Part shown: positions 4,655 to 40,232 of the stretch, in pieces
Layout: each line of letters opens with the position of its first letter
Position numbering within the stretch: the stretch's first letter is position 1
Source: Deltaproteobacteria bacterium YD0425bin50
Lineage (GTDB): Bacteria > Desulfobacterota > Desulfobacteria > Desulfobacterales > YD0425bin50
DNA: 40,232 nucleotides
Direction: 5' to 3'
NCBI GenBank assembly: GCA_002753105.1
Contig: PDZT01000010.1
Span: 1-40,232, forward strand
The notes under the pieces: model-generated
The model's database searches: none
Seen by the model: the letters and a program-made list of their open reading frames with translations, nothing else
What the model was told of the DNA's origin: nothing
Made by a program: the position numbers and the translations under genes

Positions 4655-7354
4655 ATGATTGAATTCTTCAACCGTGACTATATTCGTAAACATGTTGCTA
4701 ATTCTGAAATTATTTATCAGCGGGGAATAAAAGTGTATGAGAATGGCGCTTTTTCATGTAGTGAATGGAACCCTGAGATAGGCTCTTTTGCTTATGATGT
4801 TGATGGATCATTTGGAGATTATATCACACGAGTGAAACTTCTTGAGAATGCCATTCAGACTTCATGCAACTGTCCATATCCAAATGAAGGCTGTAAACAT
4901 GCTGTAGCTGTTACATTAGATTTACATGATCGTTTAAGCCACTGGAAACCGCTCATCGAAAAACAAAAAGCTGTTGATTCAAAACCTGAGCCATATCTCA
5001 ACGAAGATGAAATTAGGGCACAAGCCTTAGATGATCGTAAAAAAAGAGCTAAAACCGAATCATTTAAAGTAACACTTGGCGATATGTATAAAGGCGAGCA
5101 TATGTTAACAACATCAACAGGCAAGCAATATATTGTTACGTTGCATGATCCAGAAAAAAGCCTTGGGCATTGCAGTTGTCCTGATTTTACATCTAATCAG
5201 CTCAATACATGTAAACACATTATCCATTTAACCGACTCCATTAAAAAAAATTCTGATTTTAAAAGCCGTATTACCAAAGAGCGTTTCCCATTTATAGATA
5301 TATTCTGGGATTCATGTCATGATTTACCCCGCTTGTTTTGCGAAAGACCAGAACATGAACTATCCGAAATTAAAAACGATTTGGCAGAATATTTTACCCC
5401 TGATGGTTCATATGCCAAAAAGAATATTACAGATATACTTTCTCTAATTTCCATTTTAGACAACCATAAGAATGTTCGAATTCAAGATATTGTCATGGAA
5501 CGCTTAGAAGACATGTTGATGCAAAAAGAGCTTGAAAAACTTGAGCAATCCACTTTGCCTCCGTTAACTACTTTTGTTTCAGCAAAATTATATAGTTATC
5601 AGGAGAAAGGAATACGATTTGGTCTGTATAAAAAAGCAGCGCTGATCGGCGATGAAATGGGCTTGGGCAAAACACTTCAGGCAATCGTAATTGGATTATT
5701 AAAAAAAGAGTTATTAGGATTTGAGCGAATTCTCATTGTAACGTTAGCATCATTGAAAGAACAGTGGAAGCGCGAGATAGAACATTTTACCAATGAAAAA
5801 GCGACGATTATATCAGGGGGTAAAAATAAGCGTGAACTGATTTATTTCCAAGACCCGAACTTATTTAAAATTACCAATTATGAAGCTGTGTTAAGAGATA
5901 TCATGCTCATACAACGCTTCAAGCCAGATTTAATCATTTTAGATGAAGCGCAGCGGATTAAAAATTTTACCACTAAAACCTCTGATGCTGTCAAGCAGAT
6001 CAACAAAAAACATGCTTTAGTGCTTACCGGTACGCCACTTGAGAATAAACTTGAAGATGTGTATTCCATCATTCAGTTTTTAGACCCAAAACTCCTTTCA
6101 CCCTTATGGAAATTTGCAGCAAATCACTTTATGTTAAGCAGAGATAAAAAAGGGAAAATCATTGGGTATAGAAATCTTGAACATTTACATGACAAGCTCA
6201 AATCCGTCGTGATTCGACGCAGAAAAGAGGAGGTTTTATCTGACTTACCCAATGAAATTGTCAACAACTATTATATTGATCTGGATGAAAAACAGCAGAA
6301 AATGCATAATGGATTTCTTCAAGGCCTGCTTCCGATATTAAATAAAAAAATACTTACACCAATTGATCTTCGAAGAATTCAGGAACTCTTGCTAAACATG
6401 AGACGATCATGCGATTCTACTTATTTAATCGATCGCAAAACAAATATTTCTCCCAAACTTAAAGAACTTGAAGGTATCCTTGACGAACTTGTGATTCAAA
6501 ATGGTCGAAAACTCGTTATTTTCAGCGAATGGACTACGATGACATTTTTAATAGCCAAGTATCTTTCAACTGCCGGAATTCCTTTTGTCGATTTATCAGG
6601 TAAAGTACCGATAAATAAACGTCAGGCACTCATTGATGAATTTACCAATAATCCGTTATGCAAAGTATTTCTATCCACAGATGCTGGCGGAACAGGTTTA
6701 AACCTTCAGGCTGGAGATTGTGTTGTAAACTTCGAACTTCCATGGAATCCAGCACGTATGAATCAACGAATAGGCCGTGTAAATCGAATAGGTCAAAAAA
6801 GCCGCTGTATTAATGTCGTCAATTTAATTGCAAGAAACAGCATTGAAGAAAAAATTTTAGCAGGTATTCAATTAAAGACAGACCTGTTTAAAGGTGTTTT
6901 TGATGGCGGTACTGATGTCGTTGAATTTTCTCATGAAAAGCGAACAGAACTGCTAAACCGTTTACGTCAACTAGCCGGAGAAGAGCCAGTATTACCCTCT
7001 TATGAATCAAGACCCTCAGAAGAAATCCCTGAAGACACACCTCATTATCTTAATCCTGTGGTATTGGGAACTCATGACCAAAAACCAGAAATCGCTTATG
7101 ATGCTGAAGAATCCCCCAATGAAAAACCGATAGACCCAGAGCCAGTGTCTGAAACTCAAATAGACGCAAAAAGCAACGAACATTCTCCTGAAAAAATGGA
7201 AGAAGTATTGAATTCAGGTATGCAATTCCTTGGAGGATTATTAGAAATGGCTACCGGTAAAAAATTAGAGCCTGTTGGAAATCATTCTAAAATGATTCAA
7301 ATTGATAAAACCACAGGTGAAGTTACACTAAAATTTAAACTTCCGGGGTTTTGA
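4655..7354 (+). CDS. SNF2-family helicase with two SWIM zinc fingers
   Basis: This is a large SNF2/Rad54-type ATP-dependent DNA translocase of 899 residues. The N-terminus has two SWIM fingers of CxC...CxH form: CNC(6)CKH (about 71-82) and CSC(10)CKH (about 173-188). The ATPase follows, with Walker A DEMGLGKT (about 333-340), Walker B DEAQ (about 430) and motif III LTGTPLENK. The helicase C lobe has STDAGGTGLNLQ and motif VI QRIGRVNRIGQ (about 703). An acidic, proline-rich linker (about 780-870) precedes a short C-terminal segment. I prefer the ATG at 4655 over 4649 because GGAG at 4643-4646 lies 8 bases from it but only 2 from the other. The family remodels protein-DNA complexes, often in repair or transcription recycling; the exact role here is unknown. 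Confidence 0.93.
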   Translation: MIEFFNRDYIRKHVANSEIIYQRGIKVYENGAFSCSEWNPEIGSFAYDVDGSFGDYITRVKLLENAIQTSCNCPYPNEGCKHAVAVTLDLHDRLSHWKPLIEKQKAVDSKPEPYLNEDEIRAQALDDRKKRAKTESFKVTLGDMYKGEHMLTTSTGKQYIVTLHDPEKSLGHCSCPDFTSNQLNTCKHIIHLTDSIKKNSDFKSRITKERFPFIDIFWDSCHDLPRLFCERPEHELSEIKNDLAEYFTPDGSYAKKNITDILSLISILDNHKNVRIQDIVMERLEDMLMQKELEKLEQSTLPPLTTFVSAKLYSYQEKGIRFGLYKKAALIGDEMGLGKTLQAIVIGLLKKELLGFERILIVTLASLKEQWKREIEHFTNEKATIISGGKNKRELIYFQDPNLFKITNYEAVLRDIMLIQRFKPDLIILDEAQRIKNFTTKTSDAVKQINKKHALVLTGTPLENKLEDVYSIIQFLDPKLLSPLWKFAANHFMLSRDKKGKIIGYRNLEHLHDKLKSVVIRRRKEEVLSDLPNEIVNNYYIDLDEKQQKMHNGFLQGLLPILNKKILTPIDLRRIQELLLNMRRSCDSTYLIDRKTNISPKLKELEGILDELVIQNGRKLVIFSEWTTMTFLIAKYLSTAGIPFVDLSGKVPINKRQALIDEFTNNPLCKVFLSTDAGGTGLNLQAGDCVVNFELPWNPARMNQRIGRVNRIGQKSRCINVVNLIARNSIEEKILAGIQLKTDLFKGVFDGGTDVVEFSHEKRTELLNRLRQLAGEEPVLPSYESRPSEEIPEDTPHYLNPVVLGTHDQKPEIAYDAEESPNEKPIDPEPVSETQIDAKSNEHSPEKMEEVLNSGMQFLGGLLEMATGKKLEPVGNHSKMIQIDKTTGEVTLKFKLPGF

Positions 7355-7361
7355 TGACATT

Positions 7362-7453
7362 CTTGCTCTTAATAATCGTATTCTCAATTTTAATCTAATC
7401 TTGCTCGCAAGTCATGACTTAAGATTAAGATTACGATTACGATTAAGAGCAAG
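7362..7453. repeat. Imperfect palindromic intergenic repeat
   Basis: A perfect 12-base inverted repeat, CTTGCTCTTAAT (7362-7373) and ATTAAGAGCAAG (7442-7453), encloses a longer imperfect palindrome with iterated GATTA/GATTAC steps near the right arm. It lies between the convergent SNF2 and response-regulator genes. No T-run follows on the side expected for a standard terminator on either strand, although A8 follows the right arm. It looks like a small dispersed intergenic repeat or a bidirectional mRNA-end structure. Confidence 0.6.
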
Positions 7454-7473
7454 AAAAAAAACGGGAGGATGAG

Positions 7474-8160: not shown

Positions 8161-8196
8161 GATGATTTACCCCATTCATTTTCTTATTCTGATATA

Positions 8197-8299
8197 CAGA
8201 TTTTCAGATAAATAATTTCACTGCGTTATCAGTCGAAGATATACTAACATGTATTATCTCCTCCCTCTAGCCTTGTGCAATTAATTATCTGAAAATCTG
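8197..8299. repeat. MITE-like element, copy A
   Basis: This 103-base element has terminal inverted repeats of at least 15 bases (CAGATTTTCAGATAA at the left, its complement at the right) and is bounded by TA dinucleotides on both sides (8195-8196 and 8300-8301), as left by Tc1/mariner/IS630-type insertion. Its interior is nearly identical, in reverse orientation, to copy B at 14631-14733, with only a handful of differences. No open reading frame of its own is present. It covers the stop codon and last 18 codons of baeS and most of the gap to baeR. Confidence 0.85.
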
Positions 8300-9719
8300 T
8301 AGGAAAAGTAATCTGAATTAATAGCCCGCCCAATGCTGATGATTTTGCTGAAATTTGTCCATCATGAAGCTCTACAAGCTGCTTGGAAATTGAAAGTCCT
8401 AAACCGCTTCCGCCAAGCTCGCGGCTTCGAGATGGGTCAACTCGATACAGCCGATCAAAAATACGTTCAAAAGATTCATTGGGAACTCCCGGGCCAGTAT
8501 CCTCTATATCGATTTGAATAAATTTTTCAAACCGATGCGCAACAATATGAATCGTTCCGGGTGAGGCGCTATATCGAAGGTTGTTTTCCAAAATATTCGA
8601 AAAAATCTGATTCAGTCTAAATGGCTCTCCTTGTATATAAATACCCATGATATCATCACACTCAAAATTCACACAAAGACCGCGCTGTTCCATTCGATGT
8701 TTAACCATCTGTACTGTTTCCAGCAGTATTTCTAAGGGATAGATAGATGTTTTGCGAATGATTAGATTGTTCGAATCCGCCATAGAAAGCAGGTGCAAGT
8801 CATCAACAAGTTTTGCTAATCGAATAATCTCTGAATGCAGTGACGCAATCGTATCCATACTTGGGGTTCTAATTCCATCCTGAATTGCTTCGATTTCACA
8901 GCGCAACACTGTAATTGGAGTTCTCAGTTCATGTGAAATATCTGTAATCCATTGTTTGCGCAGGGTTTCATATTGTTCAAGAGTCAACGCCAGCGTATTA
9001 AAATTTTGGGATAAATCTCCAAGCTCATCTGATGAATACACAGGAATACGCTTTTTAAATTGGCGGGAAATCAAGTCCGATGTACCTTCTTTGAGTGCCT
9101 TGACCTGTATTACGATGTTTCGTGATATAAAAACTGTAACCAATATCGTTATCAACAGTGAAACGGATACTGAAACAAGCATAAATAGGTGTTGTCTCTG
9201 TAAAAAATCTTTTCCACGACGATCCTTAAACGGTTGGAGTTTATGAATTCCTAACCAACCAATAATCTGGCCATTATTTTCTATTGACTTGATTGTAAAT
9301 TCTTTTATTGGAAACGAACTTCCTGCAATGTTGTTTTGCTGATTATCAAATAGTCCAAGTCGTTGAATCATTTCGAAGGGATGTGGAAATGGAGGATGTT
9401 CAGGCTGAAATTGATCTGGGTGCATCTTGTTATCTGGATCATGTGGGGGCGGAGGAGGATGCGGAGGTTCTTTTTTGTAGATTCGTAACAACTGATACCA
9501 CAAAGAAGGATTGGATTGCAGTGGGTTCCAGCCATGGTTACTTAGATACATTTCTTTTAAAGCATTTTCTAAATCAGCAAGTCTATCTAATTCCGTACGA
9601 TTCACATATTCCATGAAATTACGACGTGCATAATTTTCGATTGCCATTGGTAAAAAAAGAATGAAGAGTGAAGTAGAAAGAAAGGCAATAAAAAGTTTAT
9701 AGCTCAGTTTTATTTTCAT
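8244..9719 (-). CDS. baeS: Sensor histidine kinase, BaeS-like
   Basis: This 491-residue inner-membrane sensor kinase is the partner of the BaeR-like regulator just downstream. Order of parts: membrane segment (about 8-25), periplasmic sensor (26-176), second membrane segment (177-199), HAMP (200-255), HisKA with His263 in DISHELRTPI, then an HATPase_c domain with FSNILENNLRYS, DTGPGVP and GGSGLGLSI. The early periplasmic pattern NHGWNPL...WYQLLR matches BaeS. Residues 84-116 form an unusual proline- and histidine-rich stretch with five histidines (87, 93, 100, 108, 113), possibly metal-binding. The last 18 residues (about 474-491) and the stop are encoded by MITE copy A. MITE copy C ends 7 bases before the ATG, and no good ribosome binding site remains there. 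Confidence 0.88.
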   Translation of the reverse strand: MKIKLSYKLFIAFLSTSLFILFLPMAIENYARRNFMEYVNRTELDRLADLENALKEMYLSNHGWNPLQSNPSLWYQLLRIYKKEPPHPPPPPHDPDNKMHPDQFQPEHPPFPHPFEMIQRLGLFDNQQNNIAGSSFPIKEFTIKSIENNGQIIGWLGIHKLQPFKDRRGKDFLQRQHLFMLVSVSVSLLITILVTVFISRNIVIQVKALKEGTSDLISRQFKKRIPVYSSDELGDLSQNFNTLALTLEQYETLRKQWITDISHELRTPITVLRCEIEAIQDGIRTPSMDTIASLHSEIIRLAKLVDDLHLLSMADSNNLIIRKTSIYPLEILLETVQMVKHRMEQRGLCVNFECDDIMGIYIQGEPFRLNQIFSNILENNLRYSASPGTIHIVAHRFEKFIQIDIEDTGPGVPNESFERIFDRLYRVDPSRSRELGGSGLGLSISKQLVELHDGQISAKSSALGGLLIQITFPTDFQIINCTRLEGGDNTC

Positions 9720-14597: not shown

Positions 14598-14630
14598 TCC
14601 AAGATAGCCATTTTTTTATTATATTTTATA

Positions 14631-14733
14631 TAGATTTTCAGATAATTAATTGCACAAGGCTAGATGGAGGAGATAATACATTTTAGTATATCTCCGACTG
14701 ATAACGCCGTGAAATTATTTATCTGAAAATCTA
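14631..14733. repeat. MITE-like element, copy B
   Basis: This 103-base element has terminal inverted repeats TAGATTTTCAGATAA (left) and its complement (right), bounded by TA on both sides (14629-14630, 14734-14735). Its reverse complement matches copy A along its whole length with only a few substitutions and no length change. It sits between the cytochrome gene and tlyA. It carries no gene. Confidence 0.85.
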
Positions 14734-14740
14734 TAGATGC

Positions 14741-28940: not shown

Positions 28941-29316
28941 AACATACGCAATAATTGGTGCGGCTATGATTGTTCATAGAGAATTGGGATGCGGGTTTTT
29001 AGAAGCGGTGTATCAAGAAGCTTTAGAAAAAGAATTTCAAATTCAACGTATCCCATATAAAAGAGAACATGAAATACCTGTTTTTTATCGAGGGGAAAAA
29101 CTTAAATCGTACTATAAAGCTGATTTTGTCTGCTTTGAAAACATCATTGTCGAGTTAAAAGCATTAAGCATTATTTCTGGAATTGAAGAAGCGCAGGTAA
29201 TAAACTATTTAAAAGCTAGTGGATTTCATAGGGCATTACTTATCAATTTCGGAACAAAACAATTGCAATATAAAAGATTGATTTTATCCGCAGATTACAC
29301 AGATTATCACAGATAA
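28897..29316 (+). CDS. GxxExxY protein (PD-(D/E)XK nuclease-like)
   Basis: This 139-residue protein has the family motif G33-F-L-E36-A-V-Y39 in ELGCGFLEAVYQEAL. A nuclease-like core follows, with Asp76 (YYKADFVCF) and Glu86-Leu-Lys88 (IIVELKAL), as in PD-(D/E)XK folds. The family is of unknown function and is often present in many copies per genome next to short repeats. Here both protein ends (SQMDADKQD and SADYTDYHR) are encoded by the flanking CGCAGAT repeats. The start is uncertain: ATGs at 28897 and 28906, no ribosome binding site. It overlaps pabA and separates it from pabB, so it appears inserted. Confidence 0.85.
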   Translation: MSQMDADKQDKRDKQTYAIIGAAMIVHRELGCGFLEAVYQEALEKEFQIQRIPYKREHEIPVFYRGEKLKSYYKADFVCFENIIVELKALSIISGIEEAQVINYLKASGFHRALLINFGTKQLQYKRLILSADYTDYHR

Positions 29317-29486
29317 AAAATAATAAATTATCTGCGTAATCTGCGTAATCTGTTGATTGTAATCTGCTGCTGCGGAACAACACAATTGCAAAAAGATTGA
29401 TTTTATCCGCAGATGTCGCAGATTATCACAGATTAAAACGTAATAATTTATCTGCGTAATCTGCGTAATCTGCGGATTGTAATCAG
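29250..29486. repeat. Tandem right-end repeat of the GxxExxY cassette
   Basis: Two direct copies of about 123 and 114 bases (29250-29372 and 29373-29486) each begin CGGAACAA, contain the last codons of the GxxExxY gene (AATTGCAA ... AAGATTGATTTTATCCGCAG), and then an inverted-repeat pair. In that pair ATCCGCAGAT-type and ATCTGCGTAATCTG-type arms face each other around an AT-rich centre. A third, partial right arm (AATCTGCGTAATCTG) recurs at about 29525-29539 inside the pabB frame. Confidence 0.8.
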
Positions 29487-31908: not shown

Positions 31909-33951
31909 TTAGTCTTCAACCAAAATACTAGTTGAACCTTGAACTATTCCTGTAACCGGAATAAACTGCCCGTCCCATTCGAGATATTCGGTTTTGTTGC
32001 CTTTATAATCCGGATCATAAATAATAATATCCAACCGATATACCCCTTTACCATCCAAAGCCTTCAGCTTTTCTTTTTGAATAGCGGGTAAAAAACCGCC
32101 AAAGAAGGGGACAATCTGGAATTCGCGTAGGGCTTGGCCTTTCAGATCAAAGAAAGGTACAAGTTCTTGGGTCAGGTTATCCATCCCATCTAAGGTCATA
32201 AAAAATGATCGTTTTTTCGGCGTTAAGATTCGGATAAAAATAAGTCCGGTATTAATCTCATTGGGAGAAAATGTCAGCAGCACTGAAGCGCTGTTTCCTT
32301 CATCAACTGCTTTCAGTGTCATGGGGCTGATACTGATCGTTGCAGTTACTACTTCGCCTGAAGAATCTGAAAGCTGGATAAGCATTGACCCGGAATCTAC
32401 TTCTGGAGGTAAGCTAAATGTTGTATTTTTACCTGTAACGCTGGACAACAGTGCTCCGGGAATCGGTTCAACACCCGGCATTGGCAACAATTCCCATTCA
32501 TAATTGCCTAATCCGCCTAAAGCTGAAAAAGTTTGTTCCTGACCTGGAAAAATGGTTGCCGCTCTTGGGGTAATTCGTAAAGGCCGAGTCGTAATCACTT
32601 CAGCATATCCCTGATTATCAAATTGATCTGTCACCACAACTCTGCCTATTGTCTCGGTTACATTGGAAACTACAACATGCACAACACTTGCATCTTCATT
32701 TAACGCTGTAATATCACCATTTGCGCCAACAAAAGCCCATCGGTATGGCGGCAATCCATGTACTGCGGTCATGGTAATTTCCATTCCCGGATCACCTGCA
32801 TACGTACTAGGTGTGATCACTGGATCCAGTTCAGTAACAACATCCACAGCAACAGTCAGTTTTGTATTTGCACCGTCATAAATCGTGATTGTATCCTGTC
32901 CCACAGGTATTGCCATAGGTTTTTCTGTGGTTATAGTTTCAGGATTCACGGTAGAATACTTAAATATTCCAAGGTTATAACTTTGATTTACAGACTGAAT
33001 ATATCCCCGATCGCTTACCGCAATATAATTTCCAGCGCCATTGAAGACTTCTAATTTGACGCTTTCACCTCTATGAAGTGTTATTTGCTGGCTCGGGTTA
33101 ACTCGCAATTCACCCATCACAAATAAAAATCCCTGAATTTGATGGCCGGAAACCTTGTCAGTTACTGTAATGGTGATCATGTTCTTTTTACTGGATAAGG
33201 TGGGAGTTGCAACAGACGCAACTTGAATGCTTGCTGACGCATTATTTTGATCTGAATAACTCAGGATTTCAGCGCTGTTATCAATGCTCCACTGATACGG
33301 CGGCACACCACCTTGCAATTCCATGCTCACACTATCACCAAGCTGAACGCTTTTGGATACTGTGATAAAACTCAAGGGATTCCGGTTATATACTGTAGAT
33401 TGGCACATATTACCAGAAGCATCTGTAACAGTTATGGTATCATCTTGTAATAAATCTGAAGCATGATACACAACCACTTCGCCTTCATTGATAATATTGC
33501 CGTTTTTATCTCTAAACTCACCCGTTACCGCATTCCATTTAAACGGAGGATAACCGCCAGACACGATCATATCTACTGTTTTTCCCGGGCTGACAACAAA
33601 TTCCTGACGTAAACTCATCGGCCGGTTAATAAACACCGTCGCTGTATCCTGCAAACCCGAATGATCTGTGACTGTAATCGTTGCTTCTGCATCGATAAGT
33701 CGTGGCGATGTAAATATTGCGCTTGATGTATTTTGTTGAGGCTCAATGGCGCCTTTATCCACAGTCCATACATACGGAGGATTTCCGCCGACCACTTGAA
33801 TTATAACGTCCTTATAGTCTTCATTAATCCAATTATATTTCGGCGATAATACGGGTTTATTTCTAACATGAATCATAATGCTTCTTGTATTATTTGCATT
33901 ATCAGCTACCGTCACCGTATAATCTCCAAGTTCATTGGGCGCTTTAAATTG
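31909..33951. repeat. Duplicated 2-kb segment, copy 1 (3' part of first giant gene)
   Basis: This 2043-base segment aligns with 38190-40232 at a constant offset of 6281 bases at the stop codon, in the middle and at the window edge, so no net length change separates the copies. Identity is patchy: 33020-33147 is identical to its partner, and about 31965-32340 differs at only a few bases, while intervening parts differ at many silent sites. Confidence 0.85.
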
Positions 33952-36900
33952 AACGCTTGGCCCTTTATATCCATCTGAAGGAATAAAAGAACCGCCTATA
34001 GGCGCTGTCCAGATTAATTCGCTCATACCGCCAGATGCTTCCAAATCAACAACTTCGCCTCGGGCAACTGTTTTTTCTGCCACTGCTAATTTTATTACAT
34101 TGGCTGCTGAAAAATTGATAATTGCCGTAACGTTTTTACCTGCGGCATCATATACCGTAAGCACATCATCTGTCGTAATGGCAGGCGCTGTGTAAGTGAC
34201 TGTGGTTTGATTCACAGTTGCACTGCCATTTTGAGCTACTGCGGTATAAGGTGATTTGCCTCCTGTGATGGTAAAACGATGAACGCTGCCCGTTTCTGTG
34301 ATTGTCAGCACGTTTGGCGAAATGATCAGCGGCAGAGCTATTGCTTCAAACAATGCAGTAATTGTTTTGGCTTTGTCCATTTTGATTGTCAGCGGATTCG
34401 TCAAACCGCTCGAATCTTTAGTCCAGCCCTTAAATGTATATCCTGTTTCGGGTTCTGCAATTAATGATACGGTTTCATTGCATGAATACGCAGGCTTTTG
34501 AGGATTGATAAAGACTTTTCCATTTTTAGCAATCACGGTTAGGGTATAAGTTTTTACAGAATCAATAAATGTTGCGGTTATACTATGATTCGCAGTAACA
34601 TTGTTGAAGGTATATGTCGAAACCGCTCCAACTGAATTTCCATCTACCGTCACATCAGCAATATCGTAACAGGTGTCGGGAGTAATTGTATAGGTTTGAG
34701 AACCTCCATGAGTTATTGTTACAGGGCTTGATGGAGAAATAAGGCCTCCCGTTCCTGCTATTGAGGTAAGGGTGTATTCTTTGCTGATCGCAGTAAATGT
34801 AGCCGAAATCGTTTGGTTGAACGTCACGTTGCTTATTGTATATGTTGACACTTTTCCTACTGATGTCCCATTCACCTTAACATCATCTATTTCAAAACCA
34901 TCATTGGCAGATATTGTAAATATCTGGCTTGCGCCTTGATTGACTGAAACCGATCCTGAAGGTGAAATAGTTCCTCCTGTACCGGCTGAAGCGGTAATGC
35001 TATATGAGGAATTCAGAGGATATGATCCATATGGTTGGTTACGAACGGCACGTACGTAGGATCCATATTTACTGGATCCATATCCATCTTTACTGGAGTA
35101 TCCATCCATGCCGTAGATGAAGCCTACAAGATACGCCATATCAGTGTGATTGATGTCAGTAGTACTTGACCAATAAAAGGACGCAAGAGTCGCAACCATT
35201 ATTTCCGTATGTATGGACGAACTGATTGTAAATAATTGATTTATCGTCGGACTACCTTTACCTTTGCTATTATCAGTTATGCTTAATAATTCTTTTATGT
35301 TAGGCAAACGCCAATCTGAATATCCAGCCAAATTCAAATTTTCACAATATACCAATGCATCTGACCATTTTCTTTCAACCCCATCATCTGATTTTTGCCA
35401 CATCAATCCCGTTGTCTGATCGGTTACAGTGCCATCGCCATTATCAATCATTAAATGATTCTGACTATCTAATGATTCACATGATCTTGCACGAACGGCA
35501 CGCATGCTGTAGACATCGGTCTTAGGTAGAGCTCCAGAGAGTGGTGGTCCAGAGCCGCCATAAAAACTCACGAGCCAGACGTTAGCACTGTTATTTACGT
35601 CCATAGTACTCGACCAATAAGTAGCTCCCGACCATGAGTTAGGAAATTTGCATATAAATACAGGGTTAATCATAGGATTTTTTTGGCCATAATCCACAAT
35701 ACCTCTCAACTCACTCAAAGTAGGCAACCTCCAATCTGAATACCCGGCAAAAATCAGATTATCGCAGTATGTGTTCGTATCATTCCAATTACGTTCAATG
35801 CCGTCATCTTCTTTCTGCCACATCAACCCTGTATTTAAATCGGTCACTGTACCATCGCCGTTGTCCTTATACCGCTGTTTATCATTATTGTACTGAGCAT
35901 CTTGACCATAAAAAGGTTGCCCTTCATTTGGACAAGGAATTTCAGTAGAATCATTGTAACATTTTTCCTGACCGGTATCAGAAGTAAAATTACATTCAAT
36001 AGAGGTAAGAACAAATGCAGCTTCAATGATGTTATTTGCTGTGACATTGCTGAATGTATAAGTAGAAACTGCACCAACTGATGTTCCATCAACCTTGACA
36101 TCAGCAATCTGATAACCAGAATTAGCAGTAATCGTAAAGGCTTGACTGCTTCCATGAGTTACGGATACTGAACCGGATGGGGAAATAGTTCCGCCGGTTC
36201 CTACATTTGCTGTGATCGTATATTTTTTTGAGCTGAACGTTGCAGCAATGCTTTGATTTGAAGTAACTTTGTTGAAGGTATAGCTTGACACAGACCCAAC
36301 CGAATTGCCGTTAACCGTGACATCAGCGATTTGATAGCCAGCGTTGGCAGTAATCGTAAACGTCTTGTTTGAGTTTTGCGAAACTGAAACCGAGCCAGAT
36401 GGCGAAATATTCCCTCCAGTTCCTGCAGTTGCGGTAATTGAGTATGTTATTGGAATGTAAGTTCCCGTAGAAGTTGTAGTCTGTCCCTGTTGAATCATTA
36501 CCGTTTGATTTGCCGGTTTTGTCCAGCCTGTAACATCTTTAAAATCAACATTATGCGAACCAATACTTAGACTTGTAACAGTAGCACCGCTCTCCTGCCA
36601 TATACCGTTATCCACTCGCCATTGAGCACCAGATGTAATGGAGCTTTGAGGGGATATGGTGACAGTGAGAGAACCAGTTTCGCCTTCCTTTACGTTAACT
36701 GGAATAACTACAGTAGCCCCTGAAGCATCTTTTACACTAACAGAACAACTACCTGCTCTAATACCGGTGATATTTAGATAACCGTCAGCGGTCAATTCTG
36801 TTTTATCAAGTGTTATATACTCTGCTTGATTTACGCTTATAACATAAGGTGGTGTACCAGCAGAAATGGAAAGTCTTATAGATTCACCTATACTAATGCT

Positions 36901-38073
36901 TACTGTACTCGGAGTCACTGAAAATTTACGAGGAGAAACTACTGTTACTTGAAGAGTTTTAACACTTGCATTAGCATCTGTGACTGTAACAATATAAGGT
37001 CCACCTAAATCATTCCCGGTAATTTTTAGTGTGCTTGAATCAATTGTCGCTTGGATAAAAAATTGATCTGCAGGTTCAATGTTTACTGTATAGGGAGTAA
37101 CACCACCATTGATAGGAATACTTTTGGTTGTACCTAACACAATTTCTGTGGAATATATCCCTAATGTTAATGGAGTAGTGTTCTCAATCACCTTCACTTT
37201 AATTGTTTTGGTAATTGAGGCATCGGTACTTATCACTTTTAATTCATACGTACCTGGAGTAGTTTTTGCTTCAATTTTAACAACATATCTGCTTGTAGAT
37301 GACCCAATATTTGCACCATTAACCAAATTTGTACCCGCTGAATTTCTAACAGCAATTCCGGTAGTATCAAAATTGATAACATACCCATTAGCAACTTTTA
37401 TTAATTTCCCATTTGTATTTCTTGGAAATATTGCTAAAGGAGCGGCACCGTTTATCGGAAGAACCAAATAATCATTTTCTGAATTTGGATAGATGTCAAA
37501 TTTTGATAGTGAATCAGTAGTTATAATATCTGTTTCGGTCAAAGATTTAGCAACAGCAATCTCAATCTCAATATGTTGAGTTGCAATTTGTCTTGTTGCT
37601 ACATTTCCTCCTTCATCATTGCGAGCTTCATACAGTGTTATTGTAATTATATCTGTTCCATTTGCATCGTTTGGATACAAAATATTTGTCAGTCCAATAC
37701 CCTGTTCAAGGTGAATATATTTAATTATTGTTGATAGAGTCCCTGTAGATGAATTAGTATATGCCAATGCAGGTGAACTATCACCACTTATTGAACTACC
37801 AAGCAAAGTACTAATTGAAGCAATAATGCCGGATCCACCGGATTCACCATAGACATCTACATTACCTAATTGATCTAAACCCATGATAGACATATTTAAT
37901 ATCCGCCCTGTTGATGCACCAATAGATGTAATATCTGTTCGCACATCTAATCCAACTGTTGTTGTATCCCATCTGTAACCACTTGAATTATTGATATAAA
38001 TTACTAATAGACAGATGATTGTAGTAGTAAAACGGATAGTCCAATGTTTATGATATGTGTTTCTTGGTTTCAA
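31909..38073 (-). CDS. Giant secreted repeat protein with tandem DUF1566 domains
   Basis: This 2054-residue exported protein starts with TTG, supported by AGAGGAG 7 bases upstream. A signal peptide (about 1-33) is followed by a unique region (34-300) and beta-sandwich-like repeats. Then come two InlB-B/Flg_new_2-like repeats (about 544-690; pattern GTGGxISPSGSVSV...YQIADVxVxGxSVG), a Cys-rich linker, two DUF1566 domains (about 735-870 and 878-1013; DNGDGTVTDxxTGLMWQK...AGYSDWRLP...YWSST...RAVR), and two more such repeats (about 1020-1170). A Cys-bearing repeat (GYTFKGWTKD) leads into at least six Ig-like units marked GGxPPYxW, then a C-terminal domain (about 1900-2054). No membrane anchor is seen. 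Surface adhesion or matrix function is inference. Confidence 0.85.
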   Translation of the reverse strand: MKPRNTYHKHWTIRFTTTIICLLVIYINNSSGYRWDTTTVGLDVRTDITSIGASTGRILNMSIMGLDQLGNVDVYGESGGSGIIASISTLLGSSISGDSSPALAYTNSSTGTLSTIIKYIHLEQGIGLTNILYPNDANGTDIITITLYEARNDEGGNVATRQIATQHIEIEIAVAKSLTETDIITTDSLSKFDIYPNSENDYLVLPINGAAPLAIFPRNTNGKLIKVANGYVINFDTTGIAVRNSAGTNLVNGANIGSSTSRYVVKIEAKTTPGTYELKVISTDASITKTIKVKVIENTTPLTLGIYSTEIVLGTTKSIPINGGVTPYTVNIEPADQFFIQATIDSSTLKITGNDLGGPYIVTVTDANASVKTLQVTVVSPRKFSVTPSTVSISIGESIRLSISAGTPPYVISVNQAEYITLDKTELTADGYLNITGIRAGSCSVSVKDASGATVVIPVNVKEGETGSLTVTISPQSSITSGAQWRVDNGIWQESGATVTSLSIGSHNVDFKDVTGWTKPANQTVMIQQGQTTTSTGTYIPITYSITATAGTGGNISPSGSVSVSQNSNKTFTITANAGYQIADVTVNGNSVGSVSSYTFNKVTSNQSIAATFSSKKYTITANVGTGGTISPSGSVSVTHGSSQAFTITANSGYQIADVKVDGTSVGAVSTYTFSNVTANNIIEAAFVLTSIECNFTSDTGQEKCYNDSTEIPCPNEGQPFYGQDAQYNNDKQRYKDNGDGTVTDLNTGLMWQKEDDGIERNWNDTNTYCDNLIFAGYSDWRLPTLSELRGIVDYGQKNPMINPVFICKFPNSWSGATYWSSTMDVNNSANVWLVSFYGGSGPPLSGALPKTDVYSMRAVRARSCESLDSQNHLMIDNGDGTVTDQTTGLMWQKSDDGVERKWSDALVYCENLNLAGYSDWRLPNIKELLSITDNSKGKGSPTINQLFTISSSIHTEIMVATLASFYWSSTTDINHTDMAYLVGFIYGMDGYSSKDGYGSSKYGSYVRAVRNQPYGSYPLNSSYSITASAGTGGTISPSGSVSVNQGASQIFTISANDGFEIDDVKVNGTSVGKVSTYTISNVTFNQTISATFTAISKEYTLTSIAGTGGLISPSSPVTITHGGSQTYTITPDTCYDIADVTVDGNSVGAVSTYTFNNVTANHSITATFIDSVKTYTLTVIAKNGKVFINPQKPAYSCNETVSLIAEPETGYTFKGWTKDSSGLTNPLTIKMDKAKTITALFEAIALPLIISPNVLTITETGSVHRFTITGGKSPYTAVAQNGSATVNQTTVTYTAPAITTDDVLTVYDAAGKNVTAIINFSAANVIKLAVAEKTVARGEVVDLEASGGMSELIWTAPIGGSFIPSDGYKGPSVQFKAPNELGDYTVTVADNANNTRSIMIHVRNKPVLSPKYNWINEDYKDVIIQVVGGNPPYVWTVDKGAIEPQQNTSSAIFTSPRLIDAEATITVTDHSGLQDTATVFINRPMSLRQEFVVSPGKTVDMIVSGGYPPFKWNAVTGEFRDKNGNIINEGEVVVYHASDLLQDDTITVTDASGNMCQSTVYNRNPLSFITVSKSVQLGDSVSMELQGGVPPYQWSIDNSAEILSYSDQNNASASIQVASVATPTLSSKKNMITITVTDKVSGHQIQGFLFVMGELRVNPSQQITLHRGESVKLEVFNGAGNYIAVSDRGYIQSVNQSYNLGIFKYSTVNPETITTEKPMAIPVGQDTITIYDGANTKLTVAVDVVTELDPVITPSTYAGDPGMEITMTAVHGLPPYRWAFVGANGDITALNEDASVVHVVVSNVTETIGRVVVTDQFDNQGYAEVITTRPLRITPRAATIFPGQEQTFSALGGLGNYEWELLPMPGVEPIPGALLSSVTGKNTTFSLPPEVDSGSMLIQLSDSSGEVVTATISISPMTLKAVDEGNSASVLLTFSPNEINTGLIFIRILTPKKRSFFMTLDGMDNLTQELVPFFDLKGQALREFQIVPFFGGFLPAIQKEKLKALDGKGVYRLDIIIYDPDYKGNKTEYLEWDGQFIPVTGIVQGSTSILVED

Positions 38074-38145
38074 TTTACGACTCCTCTTTTTTAGTGTTGT
38101 TGATTCTATAATTCTATAATACAGCCAAATTAATAATTGATTTGT

Positions 38146-38177
38146 AAAAGCCCGGCGGGCTTATAATAAGTCCGCCG
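38146..38177 (-). terminator. Rho-independent terminator after the second giant gene
   Basis: On the minus strand CGGCGGACTTAT and ATAAGCCCGCCG (complements of 38166-38177 and 38153-38164) form a 12-bp stem with one mismatch, followed by GGCTTTTAC. It begins about 12 bases past the stop of the upstream paralog and would separate its mRNA from that of the next giant gene. Confidence 0.6.
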
Positions 38178-38189
38178 AGTTCATATAGA

Positions 38190-40232
38190 TTAGTCTTCAA
38201 CCAAAATACTCGTTGACCCCTGAACCATACCAATTACCGGAATAAATTGCCCATCCCATTCGAGATATTCGGTTTTGTTGCCTTTATAATCCGGATCATA
38301 AATAATAATATCCAACCGATATACCCCTTTACCATCGAGCGCATTCAGCTTTTCTTTTTGAATAGCGGGTAAAAAACCGCCAAAGAAGGGGACAATCTGG
38401 AATTCGCGTAGGGCTTGGCCTTTCAGATCAAAGAAAGCTACAAGTTCTTGGGTCAGGTTATCCATCCCATCTAAGGTCATAAAAAATGATCGTTTTTTCG
38501 GCGTTAAGATTCGGATAAAAATAAGTCCGGTATTAATCTCATTGGGAGAAAAGGTCAGCAGCACTGAAGCGCTGTTTCCTTCATCAACTGCTTTCAATGT
38601 CATGGGGCTGATACTGATCGTTGCAGTTACCACTTCACTGGAAGAGTCTGAGAGTTGTATCAGCATTGAGCCGGAATCAACTTCAGGAGGCAACGTAAAT
38701 GTCGTATTTTTTCCTGTAACACTGGATAACTGTGCTCCGGGAATGGGTGCAACACCCGGCATTGGTAATAATTCCCATTCATAATTCCCTAATCCGCCTA
38801 AAGCTGAAAAGGTCTGTTCCTGCCCCGGGAAAATGGTTGCCGCTCTTGGCGTAATTCGTAAAGGTCGGGTTGTAATCACTTCCGCATATCCTTGCTTATC
38901 GAATTGATCCGTTACGACAACTCGGCCTGCGGTTTCCGTTACATTGGAAACAACTACATGGACGATACTGGCATCTTCATTTAACGGCGTAATGTCGCCA
39001 TTCGCTCCCCAAAAATCCCATCGATAGGGAGGCAAGCCATGTACTGCCATCATAGTTATTTCCATGCCGGGTTCACCTGAATACATGCTTGGCGTAATGA
39101 CCGGTTCAAGTTCTGTGATCACATCCACATTAATTGTCAGCTTAGTATTTGCGCCGTCATACACTGTGATAGTATCCTGACCAACTGGAATTGCAGCAGG
39201 CTTTTCTGTGCTGATGGTTTCAGGATTTACAGTAGAATACTTGAATATGCCTAAGTTATAACTTTGAGTTACAGACTGAACATATCCTCGTTCACTCACT
39301 GCAATATAATTTCCAGCGCCATTGAAGACTTCTAATTTGACGCTTTCACCTCTATGAAGTGTTATTTGCTGGCTCGGGTTAACTCGCAATTCACCCATCA
39401 CAAATAAAAATCCCTGAATTTGATGGCCAGCAACCTTATCGGTTACGGTAATAGTGATCATGTTCTTTTTACTGGATAAGGTCGGCCCGGCTATCGAAGC
39501 CACTTGAATGTCTGCTGTTGTATTATCCTGTCCAGAATAACTCAAAATTTCTGCACTGTCATCAATACTCCACTGGTACGGCGGCACGCCTCCCTGAACC
39601 TGCATTGTTACAGCACTTCCTAATTGAACGCTTTTGCTTGCCGTCACAAAACTTAGGGGAGTCCGATTATATACAGTGGCTTGACAGGTATTTCCAGAAG
39701 CATCGGTTACAGTGATCGTATCATCCTGCAGCAAATCCGAAGCATGATACACAACTATTTCACCTTCACTGACTATATTGCCGTCTTTATCACGAAACTC
39801 ACCAGTCATAGCATTCCATATAAACGGAGGATAGCCTCCAGATACAATCATATCAACTGTTTTCCCCGGGCTAACTACAAATTCCTGCCGTAATCTCATA
39901 GGACGGTTGATAAAGACTGTCGCTGTATCCTGCAAACCAGAATGATCCGTTACCGTAATCGTGGCTTCACCATCGATGATTCTCGGAGAACTATACACCG
40001 CTGTGGCTGTATCGGTTTTGGGCACAATACTTCCCTGATCCACTGTCCAGTGATACGGAGGATTACCGCCAATCACTTGCAGGTTTACATCTTTATATTC
40101 TGCATTTATCCAGTTATATTTCGGAGACAGTACAGGTTTATTTCTAACATGAATGACAATATTTCTACTATTATTCAAATTATCTGATACCGTAACCGTA
40201 TAATCTCCTAGTTCATCTGGCGCTTTAAATTG
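38190..40232 (-). CDS. Second giant secreted repeat protein, C-terminal part (5' end outside window)
   Basis: The frame is open to the last base of the window, so at least 681 codons of a longer gene are present. It matches the last third of the neighbouring giant protein without gaps: Ig-like units with GGNPPYHW, GGYPPFIW, GGVPPYQW, GLPPYRW and GGLGNYEW, then the C-terminal domain with SVLLTFSPNEINTGLIF, FFMTLDGMDNLTQEL and YRLDIIIYDPDYKGNKTEYLEWDGQFIPV. No DUF1566 domain lies in the visible part. The two genes are a tandem pair in one orientation, separated by a terminator and 116 bases. Confidence 0.85.
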   Translation of the reverse strand, partial: QFKAPDELGDYTVTVSDNLNNSRNIVIHVRNKPVLSPKYNWINAEYKDVNLQVIGGNPPYHWTVDQGSIVPKTDTATAVYSSPRIIDGEATITVTDHSGLQDTATVFINRPMRLRQEFVVSPGKTVDMIVSGGYPPFIWNAMTGEFRDKDGNIVSEGEIVVYHASDLLQDDTITVTDASGNTCQATVYNRTPLSFVTASKSVQLGSAVTMQVQGGVPPYQWSIDDSAEILSYSGQDNTTADIQVASIAGPTLSSKKNMITITVTDKVAGHQIQGFLFVMGELRVNPSQQITLHRGESVKLEVFNGAGNYIAVSERGYVQSVTQSYNLGIFKYSTVNPETISTEKPAAIPVGQDTITVYDGANTKLTINVDVITELEPVITPSMYSGEPGMEITMMAVHGLPPYRWDFWGANGDITPLNEDASIVHVVVSNVTETAGRVVVTDQFDKQGYAEVITTRPLRITPRAATIFPGQEQTFSALGGLGNYEWELLPMPGVAPIPGAQLSSVTGKNTTFTLPPEVDSGSMLIQLSDSSSEVVTATISISPMTLKAVDEGNSASVLLTFSPNEINTGLIFIRILTPKKRSFFMTLDGMDNLTQELVAFFDLKGQALREFQIVPFFGGFLPAIQKEKLNALDGKGVYRLDIIIYDPDYKGNKTEYLEWDGQFIPVIGMVQGSTSILVED
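38190..40232. repeat. Duplicated 2-kb segment, copy 2
   Basis: This is the partner of 31909-33951 in direct orientation. The similarity continues to the edge of the window, so the duplicated unit is at least 2043 bases. Confidence 0.85.

Follow-up and report, generated by a model that had tools for sequence, protein, structure and literature searches.

Gene conversion between paralogs is already well known in kind, and several bacterial systems of this type have been described. In Helicobacter pylori, the 3' segments of babA/babB and homA/homB are reported to undergo concerted evolution by intragenomic gene conversion while their 5' segments diverge (PMC2795765). Apilactobacillus kunkeei carries consecutive giant genes, Giant1-5, which encode large extracellular proteins and show complex silent divergence with short intragenic recombination; the recombination described in that account is between strains, and the account gives no sign of any recent conversion among the copies (PMC12863079). 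In Anaplasma, Borrelia, and Treponema, segmental gene conversion is described as diversifying an expressed variable region from silent donors (PMC4534519).

The locus analysed here resembles the Helicobacter pairs in that paralogous genes, probably for surface proteins, are homogenised at the 3' side and diverge at the 5' side. It differs in that the Helicobacter genes encode outer membrane proteins and come with strain data (PMC2795765), while the proteins here are of about 2000 residues and known from a single genome, a draft with a partial dsrA match. With Giant1-5 it shares giant genes in a row and complex silent divergence, but the exchange here appears to be between neighbours and there is reported between strains (PMC12863079). 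The non-reciprocal exchange proposed here between duplicated genes within a bacterium has a parallel in the two tuf genes of Salmonella; tuf, however, is an experimental system as described, whereas our case is argued from one sequence (PMC5485169). Segment exchange among copies of surface-protein genes, partial copies included, recalls Anaplasma, Borrelia, and Treponema as well, but here the exchange homogenises a common tail region (PMC4534519).

Two giant genes at the end of one contig

The window, i.e., the whole stretch of DNA analysed, is one complete contig (C24) of 40,232 bases from a draft genome that totals 4.97 Mb over 589 contigs and is thought from estimates to be 75% complete; the copies compared below all come from this single draft genome. 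At its right end, two giant genes lie head to tail on the minus strand:

31909-38073, minus strand: gene A, 2054 codons, TTG start after an AGGAG box; two Lcl_C domains, followed by InlB-type (Flg_new_2) repeats and by the shared 3' region
38074-38189, no strand: gap between B and A, 116 bases
38190-40232, minus strand: gene B, of which the 3' part is present (680 codons and the stop); the contig end cuts the gene

Over 121 bases, the end of the window matches the end of another contig, C74, exactly, and an open frame of 1831 codons on C74 runs into this overlap. For these two reasons C74 probably carries the rest (5' part) of gene B, although the join falls short of proof, as the assembler stopped there. 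A terminator scan listed none between the two genes. Their 3' flanks show no detectable likeness (the best local score, 24, equals the maximum after shuffling), so exchange seems to be confined to the gene interiors.

In the draft genome, a dsrA match at the end of a contig is partial (382.6 bits over 235 of 402 positions) and below the cut-off of 392.85; it suggests a sulfite-reductase-bearing, perhaps sulfate-reducing, lineage. The G+C content is similar to that of multicellular magnetotactic bacteria (PMC11239054), but an affiliation with them would be a guess and is not put forward. A neighbouring 7TMR-HD protein has a 38% match in a Verrucomicrobiales MAG, too little to place the lineage. 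Elsewhere in the window, a partly self-complementary dispersed element of ~110 bases is present at 8189-8301 and 14629-14738, with a 74% match to its own reverse complement. In its own genome it has at least 47 matches, at least 40 of them at 89–100% identity (40 of 122 candidates were scored), and 7 of the 47 are weaker and fall at sites counted before, on the other strand. No Rfam family matched within the window, and it is possibly a MITE-like or intergenic palindromic repeat. An intergenic imperfect palindrome of 96 bases is found at 7360-7455, and a direct repeat of ~120 bases occurs twice, 87% alike, at 29250-29484, just before a chorismate-binding/aminotransferase fusion gene.

Four copies of the tail in the genome

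We have searched the whole draft genome for further copies, both with the 3' protein region and with DNA. With the last 225 residues as query, exactly four loci are found, namely A, B, and two that adjoin in the same orientation on contig C111:

C111, 9033-11074 (shared region): gene C, complete, frame of 1929 codons
C111, 2920-3468: D, last 182 codons of the shared region, truncated remnant

The Ig-like part is also matched by other giant proteins of the same genome, at about 25–35% identity. D retains the tail together with a similar stem-loop past the stop (the stem-loop was read by eye). Being truncated, close to the complete gene C, oriented like it, and 93.4% identical with it along D's 549 bases, D could be regarded, with other partial copies, as a silent store that feeds an expressed gene, i.e., donor-cassette antigenic variation. 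We consider this very improbable. Such a store should hold silent partial copies with variants of the variable region of the expressed gene, but D spans only the conserved tail and lacks the variable 5' part. It is also the sole such remnant found in the bin, and it looks more like a tandem copy that has lost an internal part, as a 47-base stretch upstream of D is found again upstream of C.

Upstream of gene C, whose frame opens at 5286, the octamer ACTCAACA is repeated in 15.8 perfect copies at C111 4996-5121. It is a candidate length-variable tract and might allow switching of expression.

Patchy silent divergence between A and B

Gene A from 33951 down to 31909 was aligned with gene B from 40232 down to 38190, both on the minus strand. 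The original prediction was that at least 2043 bases align without any length change. Indeed the alignment has no gap over 2043 bases, and the "at least" reflects a limit set by the contig end: the homology between A and the C74 piece extends further upstream at 63–88% per 100 columns. In total, 1725 of the 2043 bases (84.4%) are identical, and 602 of the 681 codons specify the same residue or stop. The block predicted to be identical is an exact run of 128 bases, the longest in the alignment, and in the one predicted to be nearly so (about 31965-32340), exact runs of 83, 94, 114, 43, and 33 bases lie within 31973-32349. We have delimited the following tracts, the second of which lies in the last third of the aligned region:

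33020-33147, minus strand: tract 1 in A, 128 bases with no difference from B 39301-39428, also at silent sites; C is unlike both at about half of the silent sites
39301-39428, minus strand: tract 1 in B, identical to A 33020-33147
31996-32347, minus strand: tract 2 in A (offsets 1605-1956), tail domain; 7 of 352 bases differ from B; diverged on both sides
38277-38628, minus strand: tract 2 in B, partner of A 31996-32347
32716-32849, minus strand: candidate older A-C exchange, strong on all sites, nominal on silent sites
39948-40073, minus strand: candidate older B-C exchange, strong on all sites, without significance when only silent sites are taken

The proportion of differing silent sites (pS) was calculated in sliding windows of 50 codons. 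Between A and B it ranges from 0.00 to 0.77, so the divergence is as uneven as had been proposed. It is 0.00–0.21 in the six windows over the tracts, and 0.54–0.77 in the ten that begin within the first 676 bases; outside the tracts, 32–77% of silent sites differ. In the tract windows, the A-C and B-C values are 0.25–0.61 and mostly near 0.5. For example, at offset 826 pS is 0.12 for A-B, 0.52 for A-C, and 0.61 for B-C, and at offset 1726 it is 0.00 for A-B and 0.51 for both other pairs. The closest pair changes along the region: at offset 1126 it is A-C (0.33, versus 0.68 for A-B and 0.72 for B-C), and at offset 151 it is B-C (0.32, versus 0.59 and 0.66 for the other pairs). Over the whole region the three pairs have similar pS (0.449, 0.502, and 0.531), which indicates that no pair was recently duplicated as a whole.

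One may argue that the identical blocks are simply DNA barred from change, by strong codon choice or by an overlapping signal or RNA, and the tail domain protein is indeed well conserved among all four copies. However, inside the same blocks between a quarter and a half of the silent sites of C are unlike those of A and B, so constraint does not explain the A-B tracts, and no Rfam family was matched in the window. We therefore regard this explanation as extremely improbable.

Permutation tests

The significance of the tracts was evaluated by a GENECONV-like test on A, B, and C, in which the order of sites was shuffled in 5000 permutations (floor P = 0.0002). The test used 505 polymorphic sites when all sites were taken and 237 when only silent third positions were taken; the 34 of these 237 at which all three copies differ were retained. 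As only sites with at least one differing copy enter the test, slow regional evolution is unable to yield its signals.

The best A-B fragment is 1605-1956 on all sites, with 7 mismatches, and 1605-1866 on silent sites (P = 0.0002 by permutation). The second one is 813-928 on all sites, where it has no mismatch and scores 21.0 (null maximum 16.4); on silent sites it is 801-912 with a score of 12.0 (95% threshold 7.5, null maximum 12.4). Among the silent polymorphic sites, the longest run with A equal to B and C different is 14, versus a null mean of 4.8 (P = 0.0002).

For the patches closest to C, the evidence of exchange is divided. Both the A-C fragment (1103-1236) and the B-C fragment (160-285) lie above every permutation when all sites are taken, but on silent sites the former has no more than nominal significance (P about 0.02), and the latter is not significant (P = 0.15). 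From these sequence comparisons we take the A-B tracts as demonstrated, and the A-C and B-C patches as possible exchanges.

Since the genome is a draft of 589 contigs, we have also considered an assembly artefact, in which repeat copies were collapsed or chimeric, or strains were mixed in the metagenome bin. The window stops inside B at the 121-base overlap, where the assembly graph probably branched, and the 128-base identical run is longer than this overlap, such that the assembler probably had to rely on reads or pairs to cross it. But A and B share one contig, and 7 differences persist between them within the long tract, which makes the collapse of repeats, raised in advance as a possible objection, unlikely. 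A mis-join within the 128-base run would exchange the flanks without producing identity, and the separate C-D locus shows the same pattern of homogenisation. An artefact is thus quite improbable.

Homogenisation of the tail at two loci

Over the 352 bases of the tail tract, A and B differ at 7 positions and C and D at 13, while the cross-pairs differ at 60–65. Of the variable sites at offsets 1605-1956, 50 of 70 separate A and B from C and D, which again speaks against constraint; in the flanks this split is seen at 2 of 20 variable sites (1515-1604) and 2 of 15 (1957-2040). For C and D, the run test is modest (P = 0.028), and their likeness continues into the upstream flank, where 2 of 90 bases differ. 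Judged by these counts, each neighbouring pair is homogenised in the tail, independently at its own locus.

Probable gene conversion between neighbours

The features of concerted evolution are found here: near-identical tracts, silent sites included, have diverged borders on both sides, and the third copies differ inside them. The tracts and their significance are observed directly, and so are the opposite behaviour of the third copy at the same sites and the homogenisation within pairs at two loci. From them we infer recombination between copies inside one genome as the mechanism. As the tracts are of roughly 130 and 350 bases and diverged on both sides, internal conversion is favoured over a single unequal crossover. 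The proposed exchange between copies is thus backed by two significant A-B tracts and by C-D homogenisation in the same part of the gene, and gene conversion between neighbouring paralogous giant genes very likely accounts for the A-B tracts, chiefly the one in the tail.

The segments might instead have been imported by horizontal transfer from the copy of another strain. Conversion within a genome and homologous import are inseparable from one genome, and between-strain recombination that makes mosaic giant genes has been described (PMC12863079). Yet an allele of the same gene from another strain would not alone bring A towards B, and it is the neighbours that form the homogenised pairs, at two loci. 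An outside source is therefore unlikely.

Under gene conversion between neighbours, the copies would be old paralogs of a small family of giant, probably secreted or surface proteins that have a beta-rich, Ig-like 3' region of ~680 residues in common. Short non-reciprocal exchange between neighbours, by ordinary homologous recombination, would have overwritten parts of this region much more recently, the tail domain most. The uniform tail may be a passive result of proximity and similarity, or may have been retained as the tail must fit a common partner.

Domain content and distribution

In the Pfam search, gene A matches PF07603 (179.5 bits) and PF18998 (87.4 bits) above the curated cut-off. 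The C74 piece of gene B matches the same families (189.2 and 183.4 bits), with two Lcl_C domains and many InlB-type repeats. Gene C has a laminin-G-like domain with InlB-type repeats (PF18998, 321.5 bits; PF13385, 64.1 bits), and no Lcl_C domain was found in it by this search. Weak Pfam matches on the repeat-rich C74 piece (MlaD, AdoMetDC_leader, Ntox33, and others) gave no qualifying stretch and were discarded as repeat noise. At C74 889-2738, in the probable 5' part of B, 222-base units follow one another in tandem, about eight in number and roughly 89–92% alike, and the number of units likely varies.

The genome is rich in Lcl_C proteins, with 17 matches on 12 contigs, all over the cut-off, while among 14 control genomes one has a match and none has one over the cut-off. 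As inferred only from their hydrophobic N-termini (read by eye) and domain types, the proteins are probably secreted or surface-displayed. The AlphaFold2 model of the shared 3' region is poor (mean pLDDT 55.3, pTM 0.28, residues 542-680 under 50), and consists mainly of strands in this form.

Relatives of the shared region are few. Of 58 genomes, the only one with a match is its own, and two further contig scans of other genomes gave none. When 389 genomes of the class were searched by alignment, with at most three candidates scored per genome, 7 had a match, its own among them; in the other 6, at the same depth of scoring, the matches lie only within positions 1-487 and the tail is unmatched. 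The tail domain had no match in any other genome searched. In the literature searches, none of the listed titles and abstract openings describes this gene family. Both of these negatives are limited evidence.

Uniform 3' regions and diverse 5' regions

The original prediction also suggested that the exchange could vary exposed surface domains. This part is unsupported: the tracts make neighbours alike in their common 3' region, and it is the 5' part that varies, in domain content and repeat number. Since it is upstream of the shared region that the genes carry different domains, diversity lies at the 5' side and homogenisation at the 3' side, though small amino-acid mosaics do arise from exchange. 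A speculative and rather unlikely extension is that each cluster retains a distinct form of the tail domain of ~120 residues (A/B versus C/D, with many differences) to match a locus-specific export or anchoring partner, such that conversion would be selected for tail compatibility while the 5' domains diversify.

In conclusion, a clean textbook signature of conversion is seen in an uncultured bacterium whose giant proteins of surface type are many. Simple trees or dates of such paralogs would be misleading, as segments of one gene differ in their closest relative. Our results suggest that in this family of giant genes the 3' region is apparently held uniform while the 5' region bears the diversity.
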